NCBI GenBank assembly: GCA_030682715.1
Contig: JAUXNQ010000064.1
Span: 1-37,490 of the forward strand
Source of the DNA: Methylotenera sp.
GTDB taxonomy: Bacteria > Pseudomonadota > Gammaproteobacteria > Burkholderiales > Methylophilaceae
DNA length: 37,490 nucleotides
Direction of reading: 5' to 3'
Each line of letters starts with the position of its first letter. The first letter of the stretch is position 1. Made by a program: the position numbers and the translations under genes. Shown piece after piece: positions 33,977 through 37,490 of the stretch. The notes under the pieces were generated by a model, which did not search any database, was not told the DNA's origin, and worked only from the letters and a program-made list of their open reading frames with translations.

Positions 33977-34414
33977 ATGAGTTTATACAACCCCAGCCGC
34001 GACCAAGCCAGACAATTTTTGTTTGACGCGTGGGCCAAGTTTAAACAGCACTCACCGCTTTCTGACTTGGAAAAAATCGCAGTTGAAGTCATGCAAATGC
34101 ACCCTGAGTACCACACAATACTAGATGCGCCTGAGCGCTATATGCAACAGCAGTATTTTCCCGAACAAGGTGAAACAAACCCATTTTTGCATTTGAGCTT
34201 ACATTTATCGGTCATTGAGCAAATATCGATTAACCAGCCAATTGGCATTGGCCAGATTTATGAAAAGCTCAAACTGAAACATAGTGATCAGCACATGGCA
34301 CAACACGATATATTAGAGTGCCTTGCAGAAACTATTTGGCAATCTCAACGCAACAACACACCATTAGATTCAGCACACTACTTGGGCCTTTTACAGCAAA
34401 GGGTAGCGGCTTAA
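33977..34414 (+). CDS. DUF1841 family protein
   Basis: This 145-residue soluble protein of unknown function matches the betaproteobacterial DUF1841 type (MSLYNPSRDQARQFLFDAWAKF at the start; EMQMHPEYH-like and NPFLHLSLHLSVIEQI segments in the middle). I start at 33977, since the AGGT just upstream and the family N terminus agree; the open frame extends upstream into the FIST gene. Its stop is one base before the sigma factor ATG, so the two are probably translated from one message. Confidence 0.8.
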   Translation: MSLYNPSRDQARQFLFDAWAKFKQHSPLSDLEKIAVEVMQMHPEYHTILDAPERYMQQQYFPEQGETNPFLHLSLHLSVIEQISINQPIGIGQIYEKLKLKHSDQHMAQHDILECLAETIWQSQRNNTPLDSAHYLGLLQQRVAA

Positions 34415-34415
34415 T

Positions 34416-34973
34416 ATGAGTAACAATGTCAACGATTGGCTCAACGAACATGGTGACTATTTGTATCGCTTTGCCCTAGCGCGTCTAAAAGACACCCACC
34501 AAGCTGAAGATGCCGTACAAGAAACCATGCTCGCAGCCATCAAAAATAATAGCTTTGAGGGCGACTCATCTATACGCACATGGCTAACAGGCATACTCAA
34601 ACATAAAATCATTGATATGCAGCGGAAACTCATACGCGAACAGCCTGTATCAGACATCATCGACCTAGATGCGGTTAATGAAAGCATGGATGATTTCTTT
34701 GACAAAACTGGCCATTGGCTAGACAAACCACAATCTTTTGACATGCCCGACCATGCATTAGAGCAGAGTCAATTTTTAAGCGTGTTGGATGCATGCATGC
34801 AAAAACTACCCAAGAAGCTGAAAGCTATTTTCATGCTACGAGATGTGCATGAAATGGAAAATGAAAATATTTGTAAGGAACTAGATATTACCCCGACCAA
34901 TGCTTGGGTAATGTTATATAGAGCTAGGATGGGGCTAAGAAAATGTTTAGAGATGAATTGGGTTAAGGGTTAG
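34416..34973 (+). CDS. ECF-type RNA polymerase sigma factor
   Basis: This 185-residue sigma-70 family factor has only regions 2 and 4. Region 2 spans about residues 8-75 (YRFALARLKDTHQAEDAVQETMLAAIKN, then the DNA-binding RTWLTGILKHKIIDMQRK). Region 4 spans about 120-180 (LDACMQKLPKKLKAIFMLRDVHEMENENICKELDITPTNAWVMLYRARMGLRKCL). It is immediately followed (9 bp) by a small zinc-type anti-sigma and then the hvf/buf operon, which is its likely target. Comparable sigma/anti-sigma pairs control bufferin-type operons elsewhere. The inducing signal (copper, other metal, or oxidant) cannot be read from the sequence. Confidence 0.92.
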   Translation: MSNNVNDWLNEHGDYLYRFALARLKDTHQAEDAVQETMLAAIKNNSFEGDSSIRTWLTGILKHKIIDMQRKLIREQPVSDIIDLDAVNESMDDFFDKTGHWLDKPQSFDMPDHALEQSQFLSVLDACMQKLPKKLKAIFMLRDVHEMENENICKELDITPTNAWVMLYRARMGLRKCLEMNWVKG

Positions 34974-34982
34974 GATTATCAT

Positions 34983-35240
34983 ATGCTTACCTGCAAACAA
35001 GCTAGTCAACTTATCTGTCAATCTTTAGACCATCCTTTATCTTGGTATGAACTTATGCAACTTAGACTGCATCTTATGATGTGCGGTGCATGCAACCGAT
35101 TCAGGAAACAATTGAATATATTGCTGATTGGATTGTGCAAGATTAGAACCAATATAGAAAATGATAGCGCTATTCAGCTCCCATTAGATGCAAAAACGAG
35201 AATCGTTGAAAAAATAAAGTCTGATCAACATGCTCAATAA
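34983..35240 (+). CDS. Soluble zinc-finger (ZAS/zf-HC2-like) anti-sigma factor
   Basis: This 85-residue protein has C4, H30, C34 and C37 in a C-x25-H-x3-C-x2-C arrangement (HLMMCGAC), the zinc-binding anti-sigma signature. There is no membrane helix beyond a modest hydrophobic stretch (LNILLIGL), so it is probably cytoplasmic and could sense metals or thiol oxidation directly. Position 9 bp after the ECF gene supports partnership with it. A similar small zinc anti-sigma partner (MseR) is known for Neisseria sigma-E. Confidence 0.85.
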   Translation: MLTCKQASQLICQSLDHPLSWYELMQLRLHLMMCGACNRFRKQLNILLIGLCKIRTNIENDSAIQLPLDAKTRIVEKIKSDQHAQ

Positions 35241-35296
35241 TGTTCGTTGGTGTAAAACACAGTAAGTATTAACTCTTTAATTTAAAGGAAACTATA
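35241..35296 (+). promoter_or_regulatory. Presumed sigma-responsive promoter region of hvfA/bufA
   Basis: This 56-bp gap is the only sizeable spacer between the anti-sigma and the peptide gene. It contains TGTAAAAC (35251-35258) and an AT-rich stretch, then AAAGGA as a strong ribosome binding site 7-8 nt before the ATG. The ECF -35/-10 elements cannot be fixed from one sequence. Confidence 0.35.
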
Positions 35297-35623
35297 ATGA
35301 ATAAAACACACAAAACACTTTCACTTGCTATTGGTGGCGCATTAGCACTTTCAGTTGCAGCAACAACGGTGAACGCAGCTGAAAACCCATTTGCATTAAA
35401 ATCACTCGCAAGTGGCTACCAAGTTGCAGATGCACATGATGCAAAAGCAGCCGATGGCAAATGTGGCACTGGTAAATGTGGCACAGCTGAAAAAGCTAAA
35501 GAAATGAAAATGAAAGATGGTAAATGTGGTACTGGCAAATGCGGCAGTGCAGAAAAAATGAAAGAAGGCTCATGTGGCGGTGAAAAAGCCAAAGAAGGCT
35601 CATGTGGCGGTGAAAAGAAATAA
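35297..35623 (+). CDS. hvfA: HvfA/BufA-like cysteine-repeat RiPP metallophore precursor
   Basis: This 108-residue secreted peptide is a likely substrate of the MNIO enzyme encoded next. A Sec signal peptide (MNKTHKTLSLAIGGALALSV, cleavage after TVNA, residue 27) precedes a linker and a Cys/Lys/Gly-rich C-terminal half. Six Cys (56, 61, 77, 82, 93, 103) are each followed by Gly. Two copies of DGKCGTGKCG-(T/S)-AEK (53-66 and 74-87) precede two copies of KEGSCGGEK (89-97 and 99-107). In Haemophilus HvfA, EGKCG cysteines become oxazolone/thioamide groups that bind copper; the same chemistry is inferred here. The unmodified alternative is a metallothionein-like periplasmic peptide. The symbol follows that analogy. 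Confidence 0.85.
   Translation: MNKTHKTLSLAIGGALALSVAATTVNAAENPFALKSLASGYQVADAHDAKAADGKCGTGKCGTAEKAKEMKMKDGKCGTGKCGSAEKMKEGSCGGEKAKEGSCGGEKK
35561..35616 (+). repeat. 30-bp coding tandem repeat in hvfA
   Basis: AAAGAAGGCTCATGTGGCGG plus GTGAAAA-type sequence occurs at 35561-35586 and identically at 35591-35616. It encodes the last two KEGSCGGEK units. Confidence 0.85.
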
Positions 35624-35647
35624 GCACAACTCAATTTAATATTACGG

Positions 35648-36550
35648 ATGGTGAATCGTAATCAAATTCATGGTGCAGGTCTGGGGTTGAAGCGAGCGCT
35701 AATACCCCAGATTCAATCACTGTATAAGCAACCATTAATCTCAAATATTCAATTTGTTGAAATAGCGCCAGAAAACTGGATTGAAGCTGGCAGCAAAGCA
35801 ACAAAGCAGTTAGATTGGTTTGCGGAACGCTACCCTATCGTATGTCACGGGCTTTGCTTATCACTAGGCGGCATCAGCCCACTCAATATTGATTTTTTAC
35901 ATCAAGTTAAGCAGTTCTTAAACCACTACAACATTGATATCTACACAGAACATTTAAGTTACTGCACAGACGCCTACCAAGGTAAACAAGGTTATTTGTA
36001 TGACCTGCTACCGATTCCCTTTACTGAAGAAGCCGTGCATTACGTTGCAAAGCGCATCCGTCAAACGCAAGATATACTTGGTCGGCGCATTGGCATAGAG
36101 AATGCCTCGTTTTATGCAGCCGCACCTATCTCAGAAATGAGCGAACTTACTTTTCTTAACGCGGTATTAAGCGAGGCGGATTGTCTTTTACACTTAGACA
36201 TTAATAATATTTACGTCAACAGCGTGAATTTTAATTTTGATCCGCATGCATTTCTGCGTGGCATTCCACATGAACGGATTATTTACAGCCACATCGCAGG
36301 GCATTATCAACAATCGCCAGATTTACTGATTGATACGCATGGCGAGAATGTCATTGACCCAGTTTGGGCGCTACTTGAAGATGCCTATGATTTATTTGGC
36401 GTGTTCCCTACATTACTTGAACGCGACAGCAACATTCCTGCATTAGATGTATTAATGGCGGAAGTGAACAAAATTGCAAGCTTGCAGCATCAGGCGGCTC
36501 AACGCACAGTCAGAACCAACCCTCAAACATTAGCCCAGCGCTCACTTTGA
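35648..36550 (+). CDS. hvfB: DUF692 multinuclear iron oxidase (HvfB/BufB)
   Basis: MNIO enzymes (DUF692) use two or three non-haem irons and O2 to convert precursor Cys into oxazolone/thioamide or thiooxazole. This 300-residue TIM-barrel-type protein has GAGLGLKR at the start (residues 9-16), VEIAPENW, H67 in CHGLCLSLG, E101-H102 in TEHLSYC, E151-N152 in GIENASF, D184-N186-N187 in DINNIYVNS, H215 and H219 in SHIAGH, D229-H231 in DTHGENV, and E258 in LLERD, so all usual iron-ligand positions appear filled. It lies 24 bp after hvfA. The final 25 residues are hydrophilic and not obviously part of the fold. Confidence 0.93.
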   Translation: MVNRNQIHGAGLGLKRALIPQIQSLYKQPLISNIQFVEIAPENWIEAGSKATKQLDWFAERYPIVCHGLCLSLGGISPLNIDFLHQVKQFLNHYNIDIYTEHLSYCTDAYQGKQGYLYDLLPIPFTEEAVHYVAKRIRQTQDILGRRIGIENASFYAAAPISEMSELTFLNAVLSEADCLLHLDINNIYVNSVNFNFDPHAFLRGIPHERIIYSHIAGHYQQSPDLLIDTHGENVIDPVWALLEDAYDLFGVFPTLLERDSNIPALDVLMAEVNKIASLQHQAAQRTVRTNPQTLAQRSL

Positions 36551-36568
36551 CGTAATTGGAACCTTGCG

Positions 36569-37345
36569 ATGACCGATCATCTACTCAGCTTCCAACGCTA
36601 CCAACAAGCATTCACGTCACGGATACGCGACCCGCATAATCAGCCCATTCCTGCTGGCGTCGCGCCTGAACGCATGGCGGTTTATGACGAAATTGTGTTT
36701 AACAACCTGTTTGAATCTGCCTCGGCATGCTTTCCTGTCGCCAGAAAAACAGTTGGCAAACGCATTTGGTTAAAACTAGTGCAATCTTTTTTAAAAGATT
36801 ACGCCACTGACACCCCGCTTTTTCGTAAAATCCCGCAAGAGTTTTTAACTTTTTTACAGCAAACTAATCTAGCCTCACCTCAACAACTACCTGTTTACTT
36901 ACAGGCTCTATGCCATTATGAATGGATAGAACTCTATCTCAGCACTTTTCCGAGCATGGCAGATAATGCCAGTAACATCAATCCAAATGGCGACCTAGCA
37001 AAACACAGCATTGTATTTACCAACACCATGCAACTGCTAGAATATGATTACGCGGTGCATAAGATTTCTCCAAAACACAAACCTAATGCTAAAGAACCTA
37101 CTCAGCTGTTAGTGTATCGAAACCCTGAATACGATATTAAGTTTATGGAACTAAACCCGATTACCTTTAGATTACTGACGCTATGTCAGCAAGAAAGTAT
37201 GACCGCAGAGCAAGCCCTGACAATGCTTGCGGAGGAATTAAAGCATCCCCAACCAGAGCCAATCATACAATTTGGATTAGGGATTTTAGAAGATTTAAGA
37301 GGCCAAGGGGCGATTCTTGGCACCGCTCGTTCACATCTAACATAA
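36569..37345 (+). CDS. hvfC: DUF2063 partner protein (HvfC/BufC)
   Basis: This 258-residue cytosolic protein pairs with the DUF692 enzyme and is thought to recruit the precursor peptide. The N-terminal DUF2063 domain (about residues 5-105) includes RIRDPHNQPIPAGVAPERMAVYDEIVFNNL and CFPVARKTVG. A second domain follows with LQALCHYEWIELYLS and LLVYRNPEYDIKFMELNPITFRLL. It lies 18 bp after hvfB. No DoxX-type gene follows; instead an IS30-like transposase begins 53 bp downstream. Confidence 0.92.
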   Translation: MTDHLLSFQRYQQAFTSRIRDPHNQPIPAGVAPERMAVYDEIVFNNLFESASACFPVARKTVGKRIWLKLVQSFLKDYATDTPLFRKIPQEFLTFLQQTNLASPQQLPVYLQALCHYEWIELYLSTFPSMADNASNINPNGDLAKHSIVFTNTMQLLEYDYAVHKISPKHKPNAKEPTQLLVYRNPEYDIKFMELNPITFRLLTLCQQESMTAEQALTMLAEELKHPQPEPIIQFGLGILEDLRGQGAILGTARSHLT

Positions 37346-37398: not shown

Positions 37399-37490
37399 AT
37401 GGAAAGAACAAGAAAGCAATACAAGCATTTGAGTGCTGAAGAACGTGCGACGATTATGTTGATGCAACGAGAAGGAAATAACATGCGTGA
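37399..37490 (+). mobile_element. IS30-family transposase, 5' end only (cut by window edge)
   Basis: The frame starting at 37399 reads MERTRKQYKHLSAEERATIMLMQREGNNMR and runs off the window. The HLSAEERATI...REG pattern is the N-terminal helix-turn-helix of IS30-family transposases. The insertion lies within about 50 bp of the hvfC stop. The DDE catalytic domain, the right inverted repeat and target duplications are outside the window. Confidence 0.8.

Follow-up and report, generated by a model that had tools for sequence, protein, structure and literature searches.

Described relatives of the locus

The closest described relatives of the system considered here are found in Neisseria and Haemophilus. 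The system is an hvfABC-type peptide operon from a Methylotenera-like genome (contig JAUXNQ010000064.1, analysed over its whole length of 37,490 nucleotides, hereafter the window), headed by genes for an extracytoplasmic function (ECF) sigma factor and a zinc-binding anti-sigma factor (ZAS), with a promoter-like element inside the sigma factor gene. In N. meningitidis, the NMB2140-2145 operon comprises rpoE, the ZAS anti-sigma gene mseR, a DoxX-like gene and three genes, now seen as hvf-type, whose function was then unknown, and the small sigmaE regulon consists of this operon together with methionine sulfoxide reductase (msrA/msrB) (PMC2893595). The hvf-type genes lie 5′ of rpoE-mseR, the promoter stands before the first gene, the sigma factor is autoregulated, and the promoter consensus is given as GTMAGBWTT, 12-13 bases and CGTCTAAH (PMC2893595). 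In H. influenzae, RpoE2, with its small ZAS anti-sigma factor HrsE, drives msrAB and is needed for hypochlorite induction of a cluster of precursor, MNIO, DUF2063 and DoxX genes; this hvf cluster lies away from the sigma factor gene, and the sigma factor only slightly activates its own promoter (PMC7907618).

The Methylotenera locus shares several features with the meningococcal sigmaE-MseR system: an ECF sigma factor (TIGR02943) adjoining a soluble ZAS with the zinc-motif residues Cys4, His30, Cys34 and Cys37, hvf-type genes, and a related promoter consensus (PMC2893595). What appears to be the promoter motif precedes both the hvf genes and msrP, a methionine sulfoxide reductase gene. The differences are that the sigma and ZAS genes come first, the motif lies inside the sigma factor gene, no doxX is adjacent, and MsrP takes the place of MsrAB. 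The sigma/ZAS/hvf layout is a new member of an already known layout, with the following parts:

34416..34973, + strand: ECF sigma factor gene (185 residues; Pfam Sigma70_r2 and r4_2; TIGR02943 198 bits, cut-off 162)
34873-34901, + strand: putative internal sigma-dependent promoter (-35 GTAAGGAAC at 34873-34881, a 12-base spacer, -10 CGACCAAT at 34894-34901)
34983..35240, + strand: soluble ZAS anti-sigma gene (85 residues; zf-HC2; NF052368 65 bits, cut-off 50)
35297..35623, + strand: HvfA-like precursor gene (108 residues; NF050137 30.9 bits, cut-off 19.5)
35648..36550, + strand: HvfB-family MNIO maturase gene (NF003818 395 bits, cut-off 360; PF05114 331 bits)
36569..37345, + strand: HvfC partner gene, DUF2063 plus NGO1945_C (NF050145 251 bits, cut-off 142; PF09836, PF22106)

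A promoter-like element inside the sigma factor gene

The element, GTAAG-N16-CGACCAA in its core form, lies 82 bases before the ZAS start and covers codons 153-162 of the sigma factor gene (C-K-E-L-D-I-T-P-T-N), inside the Pfam region-4 match. An alignment with SigW places these codons in the region 4.2 helix-turn-helix, as is usual for ECF factors. The pattern GTMAG-N16-CGWCYAA matches once in the window and in none of 100 shuffles. When the fetched loci were first scanned with the neisserial consensus (at most 2 mismatches), nearly all whose ECF gene is complete showed a site some 440-460 bases into the ECF match, mostly 100-170 bases before the ZAS gene. Across the source genome (2.45 Mb, the scope of all genome-wide counts), a tighter pattern, GTAAGGA-N14-CGACYAA, occurs without mismatch only at the internal element. 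With at most one mismatch it occurs at two sites, one in the sigma factor gene and the other 118 bases before msrP (control, 0); no tight-pattern site was found 5′ of the sigma factor gene. The internal element is the best candidate promoter, apparently a variant of the neisserial sigmaE promoter that is not intergenic. A second candidate, in the 56-base gap between the ZAS gene and hvfA, was rejected: GTAAGTATT at 35262-35270 has no visible -10 partner, and the gap is unconserved by eye.

A parallel for such an internal promoter comes from Corynebacterium glutamicum, whose anti-sigma factor RshA we presume to be of the ZAS type. In its sigH-rshA pair, a sigma-dependent promoter, PrshA, lies inside the sigma coding region and transcribes the anti-sigma gene, in another phylum, with another promoter sequence and as a monocistronic rshA transcript (PMC3489674). 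The Methylotenera element, unlike PrshA, would also drive a peptide operon, lies in helix-turn-helix codons and is widely conserved. PrshA is the one precedent found for an internal anti-sigma promoter in the sources consulted. The promoter of the Caulobacter ECF gene sigV lies inside the preceding gene, which is a different overlap (PMC13171946). Searches of the open-licence literature (internal promoters of ECF/anti-sigma genes, ECF13 motifs, MsrP with sigma factors) returned no report of an element conserved in recognition-helix codons.

Codon-level constraint and gene order

At the same codons, GTMAG-N16-CGWCYAA was present in 46 of 54 Methylophilaceae ECF genes, compared with 2.8 ± 1.5 (maximum 8) in 1000 synonymous shuffles, in which codons are permuted within each gene so that protein and codon usage are kept. 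Among the other genes of the order it was present in 66 of 107 (shuffles 7.2 ± 2.4, maximum 16), and nowhere in the 161 ECF genes did it occur at another position or antisense. At least one element-bearing gene was found in 29 of 36 sampled families of the order, and other orders of the class carried the element in 12 of 28 ECF genes, a set limited to matches with a locus id. The 107 order-level genes were fetched from 140 non-Methylophilaceae ECF matches, the 33 left out being mostly the weakest. The 54-gene set includes one contig twice (L094 and L038), and omitted from the codon counts were loci with a partial ECF gene (L068, L069, L084) or with none (L045, L085, L086, L087, L096, L097).

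Codon choice within the element is similarly narrow. Lys154 is AAG in 111 of 111 cases (53/53 in Methylophilaceae, 58/58 in the rest of the order), with AAA the commoner Lys codon in Methylophilaceae, and Gln154 is CAG in 21 of 22 (the 107 order-level genes). Cys153 is TGT in 138 of 156 (53/53 and 85/103), whereas elsewhere in these genes Cys is encoded by TGC 273 times and by TGT 169 times (order 215:112; Methylophilaceae 58:57). An unbiased scan for third-base bias over 172 columns gave residues 160, 154 and 153 ranks two, three and four. The two halves of the element are retained or missing as a pair (Fisher p 6e-8, with kinship ignored; counted earlier with CGAC, a narrower form). On a tree of the 161 ECF genes there are about 26 changes of motif state, compared with 42 when labels are shuffled, and the motif is therefore clustered by descent. 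The codon conservation goes beyond protein conservation alone. Separately, third-base bias is also unusually strong at 34584-34604, over ECF codons 57-63, where the Leu61 codon ends in C in 96 of the 161 genes (23.7 expected).

The gene order itself is not a matter of chance, since a full-length ECF gene and a ZAS gene stand directly 5′ of the precursor gene in 49 of 57 Methylophilaceae hvf loci (L032-L087 plus L090). The remaining eight comprise three with a partial ECF match, one (L050) with a thioredoxin-CcdA pair in between, and four without an ECF gene at the locus; in these four (L045, L085, L086, L087), hvfABC stands behind DUF1841 with neither ECF nor ZAS gene. MNIOs of named Methylotenera relatives are 88-94% identical to that of the window.

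Sites before msrP and other genes

The pattern was fixed before it was applied to msrP, which encodes a periplasmic methionine sulfoxide reductase. Of 30 Methylophilaceae (those read of 49 genomes with MsrP, the other 19 having given no locus), 24 had a site with at most 2 mismatches no more than 300 bases from msrP, while the reversed pattern gave 0 of 30 even at up to 3 mismatches and base shuffles gave 2 of 600. All but one of the 24 site-bearing genomes also encode a PF05114 protein. Four of the six genomes without a site (G020, G030, G037, G049) have no PF05114 protein; the sole MNIO of a fifth (G053) scores lower, and the sixth (G018) has hvf. MsrB was rejected as a target: PF01641 has no match in the source genome. 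Over 300 genomes, a long form of the pattern matched 26 sites (control, 3), of which 11 lie in ECF genes, 4 before msrP, 1 before doxX and 1 before trx-ccdA; of the remaining 9, some stand before genes for small peptides or a response regulator or before unknown genes, and some lack an obvious target.

Small proteins were also seen near some copies of the motif. At L242 and L243, Cys-rich peptides of 43-45 residues, in which a hydrophobic stretch comes after a KCGxCGG core, begin 49-62 bases after a motif near ECF and MNIO genes, and L050 has a similar-looking small protein 5′ of its ECF gene. At L242, 592 bases after a reverse-strand motif, there is a secreted-looking protein of 72 residues with repeated NPCAAKNPC, possibly another MNIO precursor type under the same sigma factor.

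Gene arrangement and the position of the motif

The 107 order-level genes were sorted by the position of an MNIO gene, defined as a tblastn match (E ≤ 0.01) to HvfB of the window, within flanks of about 1.5 kb for L129-L155 (where distant MNIO genes may be missed) and about 2.5 kb for later loci. With the MNIO gene downstream of the ECF gene, the internal motif was present in 23 of 27 cases, and in all 18 where the MNIO was at least 49% identical to that of the window. With the MNIO gene upstream it was present in none of 8, two of which (L173, L190) carry the motif in forward orientation some 400 bases ahead of the MNIO gene. With the MNIO gene on the opposite strand it was present in 4 of 9, and 5 of these 9 (L166, L181, L214, L225, L230) have a reverse-strand copy 35-104 bases 5′ of the ECF gene. 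Where no MNIO gene was within reach, 39 of 63 had the internal motif. At L225 and L230, where the ZAS-hvf genes run divergently, the ECF gene carries no internal motif; therefore the motif adjoins the ZAS-hvf genes and does not serve the sigma factor gene. L050 is likewise without an internal motif; its copies are intergenic and stand before trx-ccdA, before hvfA and, with one mismatch, before the ECF operon. Because of the sites before msrP, those in the 300 genomes and this dependence on gene arrangement, the internal element is read as a promoter of this sigma factor.

Proposed mechanism and alternatives

We put at about 0.78 the probability that the locus is a switch of the sigmaE/MseR type, in which stress frees the sigma factor, the internal promoter drives the ZAS gene and hvfABC, and the same sigma factor drives msrP. 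The gene identities, the conserved motif with its codon-level constraint, and its recurrence before msrP, doxX and trx-ccdA genes are read directly from the sequences; the switch would operate as follows. The soluble zinc-thiol anti-sigma factor would hold the sigma factor until thiol-reactive stress (perhaps an oxidant, hypochlorite or copper) opens it and frees the sigma factor. RNA polymerase with this sigma factor would then start at the 34873-34901 promoter, which lies within the sigma factor gene near its 3′ end, and would make a transcript that covers the anti-sigma gene and hvfABC and excludes the sigma factor gene. Since the sigma factor would be outside its own transcript, the circuit would give negative feedback without self-activation. 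From its near-identical promoter, msrP would be switched on by the same sigma factor. HvfB and HvfC may convert Cys residues of the precursor to metal-binding 5-thiooxazoles before Sec export, and the metal may be copper. Basal transcription of the sigma factor gene is probably supplied from the DUF1841 side, because a single base separates the two genes:

33977..34414, + strand: DUF1841 gene (PF08897 191.6 bits), directly 5′ of the sigma factor gene

A wider form of this reading has about even odds. It holds that, in a large gammaproteobacterial ECF family, the DNA for the helix-turn-helix by which the sigma factor recognizes -35 elements doubles as a promoter of the same sigma factor, that residue changes (Lys/Gln 154, Thr/Ser 161) follow the promoter bases (M of GTMAG, W of CGWC), and that anti-sigma factor and metallophore are in this way hard-wired to the sigma factor, with the sigma factor itself spared.

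Several observations weigh against the proposed switch. The element of the window agrees with the neisserial consensus at 13 of 17 positions. A looser pattern matched 5 sites in the source genome compared with 2 for the control, 4 of the 5 being set aside as inside or antisense to genes or pointing away; with one mismatch allowed, the control pattern also matched in many relatives. The pattern was partly refined on Methylophilaceae loci, so the 46 of 54 is an in-sample count (the order, class and msrP tests are independent), and 41 of the 107 order-level genes lack it. The top rank in the third-base scan goes to residue Leu61, ahead of the three residues of the element. Four of the 27 loci with MNIO downstream have no motif; their MNIOs are 37-41% identical to that of the window, with no other copy nearby. 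The 0 of 8 for MNIO upstream represents about four origins, so that these counts are not independent, and six of the eight MNIOs are only 30-35% identical and possibly belong to other systems. In Cupriavidus metallidurans, the ECF gene rpoQ lies beside the gig (bufferin) genes, whose expression it is not proven to control; its anti-sigma factor, however, is of another, membrane-bound kind (PMC10304878).

Among the other explanations, it is unlikely, though not negligibly so, that this is a copper-buffering operon whose sigma factor senses copper directly, unlinked to oxidative protein repair. A 5-thiooxazole peptide has been reported to bind copper (PMC12668002), but copies of this sigma motif stand before msrP, doxX and trx-ccdA genes as well, and the hypochlorite induction of the Haemophilus hvf/doxX cluster depends on RpoE2 (PMC7907618).

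Distinctly improbable is a second account, in which the internal element is a roadblock or pause for polymerase carrying the sigma factor and represses the sigma factor gene, while hvf is transcribed from the DUF1841 side or from a housekeeping promoter before hvfA. The one-base gap after DUF1841 and a TTAACT-18-TATAAT match at 35269-35298 fit this account, and intragenic sigma factor sites can, by one report, be transcriptionally silent (PMC10771440). However, sigma-70 promoters and terminators in the window are at or below chance (9 sigma-70-like matches, 10.8 expected), and no conserved motif was seen by eye in the ZAS-hvfA gaps. The element is also absent when the MNIO gene is upstream (0/8), and the reverse copies 35-104 bases 5′ of the ECF gene at 5 of the 9 opposite-strand loci are placed as a productive promoter would be. 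Less probable still is that codon conservation here stems from constraint on the protein combined with codon bias or some other nucleic-acid signal (translation, RNA structure) and that the promoter match is coincidental: the residues C-K/Q-x-L-x-I-x-x-T-N are indeed conserved in the sigma family and the Leu61 column is more biased still, but synonymous shuffles give 2.8 and 7.2 where 46 and 66 are observed, and both blocks recur with the same spacing before msrP, doxX and trx-ccdA genes.

Class of the peptide operon

The original prediction, made from the window's sequence, was of a self-contained metallophore or bufferin operon with a dedicated sigma/anti-sigma pair. Its description of the parts was borne out: Pfam and NCBIfam models identify the MNIO and its DUF2063 partner and, above their cut-offs, the two-domain ECF sigma factor and the 85-residue zinc anti-sigma factor upstream, and the precursor has six Cys-Gly pairs and a signal peptide as judged by eye. 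Control of the operon by the adjacent sigma factor is likewise supported, by way of the promoter motif. The name bufferin does not fit, and "dedicated" and "self-contained" hold only in part: the operon has its own ECF/ZAS pair, but the same motif precedes msrP here and in most relatives examined. The promoter-like element within the sigma factor gene was not part of the original prediction.

By its model matches the operon is of the oxazolin/captophorin type (HvfABC), not a bufferin, because the HvfB, HvfC and KCGExKCG models pass and BufB and MbnB fail. The precursor has no Pfam match (no DUF2282) and the MNIO reaches 262 bits with the BufB model NF050167 (cut-off 310); methanobactin was rejected at 29.8 bits with the MbnB model TIGR04159 (cut-off 325). 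The HvfA equivalog model NF050188 gives 27.3 bits (cut-off 95), so the precursor is HvfA-like and not HvfA itself. The nearest solved structure to the window's MNIO is 3bww, and a solved-structure search with the anti-sigma factor gave no match. In that anti-sigma factor (34983-35240), Cys12 stands where most relatives have Ser, and the C-terminal half has one further Cys where close relatives have Arg.

Bufferins Buf1 and Buf2 share with this operon an MNIO, a DUF2063 protein and a secreted Cys-rich precursor, and Buf1 clusters may carry sigma factor genes; they differ in precursor family, in MNIO model and, for Buf1, in having NrsF anti-sigma factors, and the EGKCG-cluster section of the same survey names no sigma factor (PMC12452194). 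The peptide chemistry of HvfB-type enzymes is 5-thiooxazole formation (PMC12668002, PMC13419390). With the captophorins (fontiphorin FonABC, gonophorin) the operon has in common a repeated G-K-C-G core and an MNIO with a PME1/DUF2063 partner (PMC12668002).

No doxX stands between hvfC and the contig end, and the single DoxX gene of the genome lies on a different contig, where the tight promoter pattern is absent. Among the longest open reading frames in the 1.6 kb 3′ of hvfC in five close relatives, no DoxX was seen by eye; in some other relatives (L050) doxX does follow hvfC. Loss of doxX to an insertion element was considered and is unlikely, as close relatives are also without doxX at that place. 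Outside the operon, the contig ends in a reading frame that we take to be of the IS30 type:

37399..37490, + strand: start of a transposase-like open reading frame, cut by the contig end (HTH_38, E 0.0011, below the Pfam cut-off)

Cysteine contexts in the precursor

The window's precursor consists of a Sec-type signal (N terminus judged by eye), an NPF...GYQV segment, DGKCGTGKCG twice and EGSCG twice, with Cys at 56, 61, 77, 82, 93 and 103, each followed by Gly. Unlike captophorins, it mixes DGKCG/TGKCG pairs with EGSCG, and the H. influenzae precursor is described as having three AEGKCGEGKCG motifs (PMC7907618, PMC13419390). The two Cys contexts noted originally are real and common in the family, GKC[GS] and G[SAN]C occurring together in 43 of 58 Methylophilaceae precursors (the window's included); KEGSCG is EGKCG with a single residue altered. 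The 331 Cys of these 58 precursors are preceded by Lys (191), Ser (89), Ala (28) or Asn (14) and followed by Gly (172), Ser (120) or His (20); in 20 precursors from other gammaproteobacteria, all 153 Cys are followed by Gly and 146 come after Lys. In much of the family, for example L054-L062, Cys-Ser and Cys-His (EGSCS, EGSCH) replace Cys-Gly. Past the signal peptide, NPF is present in 58 of 58 and GY[QM]V in 56 of 58, and this segment is a candidate for recognition.

In assays, FonBC modified DGKCG fully; it tolerated Ala, Arg and Thr at position 3 and, in a double-variant panel, only Ala besides Gly at position 5 (PMC12668002). Because of this tolerance, by analogy, the window's EGSCG sites are plausible MNIO substrates, and Cys-Ser and Cys-His sites, whose processing the FonBC position-5 data do not predict (PMC12668002), would need a differently tuned enzyme.

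Implications

SigmaE/MseR and RpoE2/HrsE have been studied in organisms with other gene orders. The sigma-first order predicts a different circuit, in which the sigma factor drives its own inhibitor and a metal-binding peptide from inside its own gene. If this is true, a promoter would share its DNA with the codons for the very domain that recognizes it, and this overlap would be widely conserved. The arrangement also bears on the role of the thiooxazole peptides, which it would tie to methionine-oxidation repair (msrP) and to doxX and thioredoxin-CcdA genes. Linked to these genes by the motif, the peptides seem to belong to a response to oxidants in the periplasm and not to copper storage alone.

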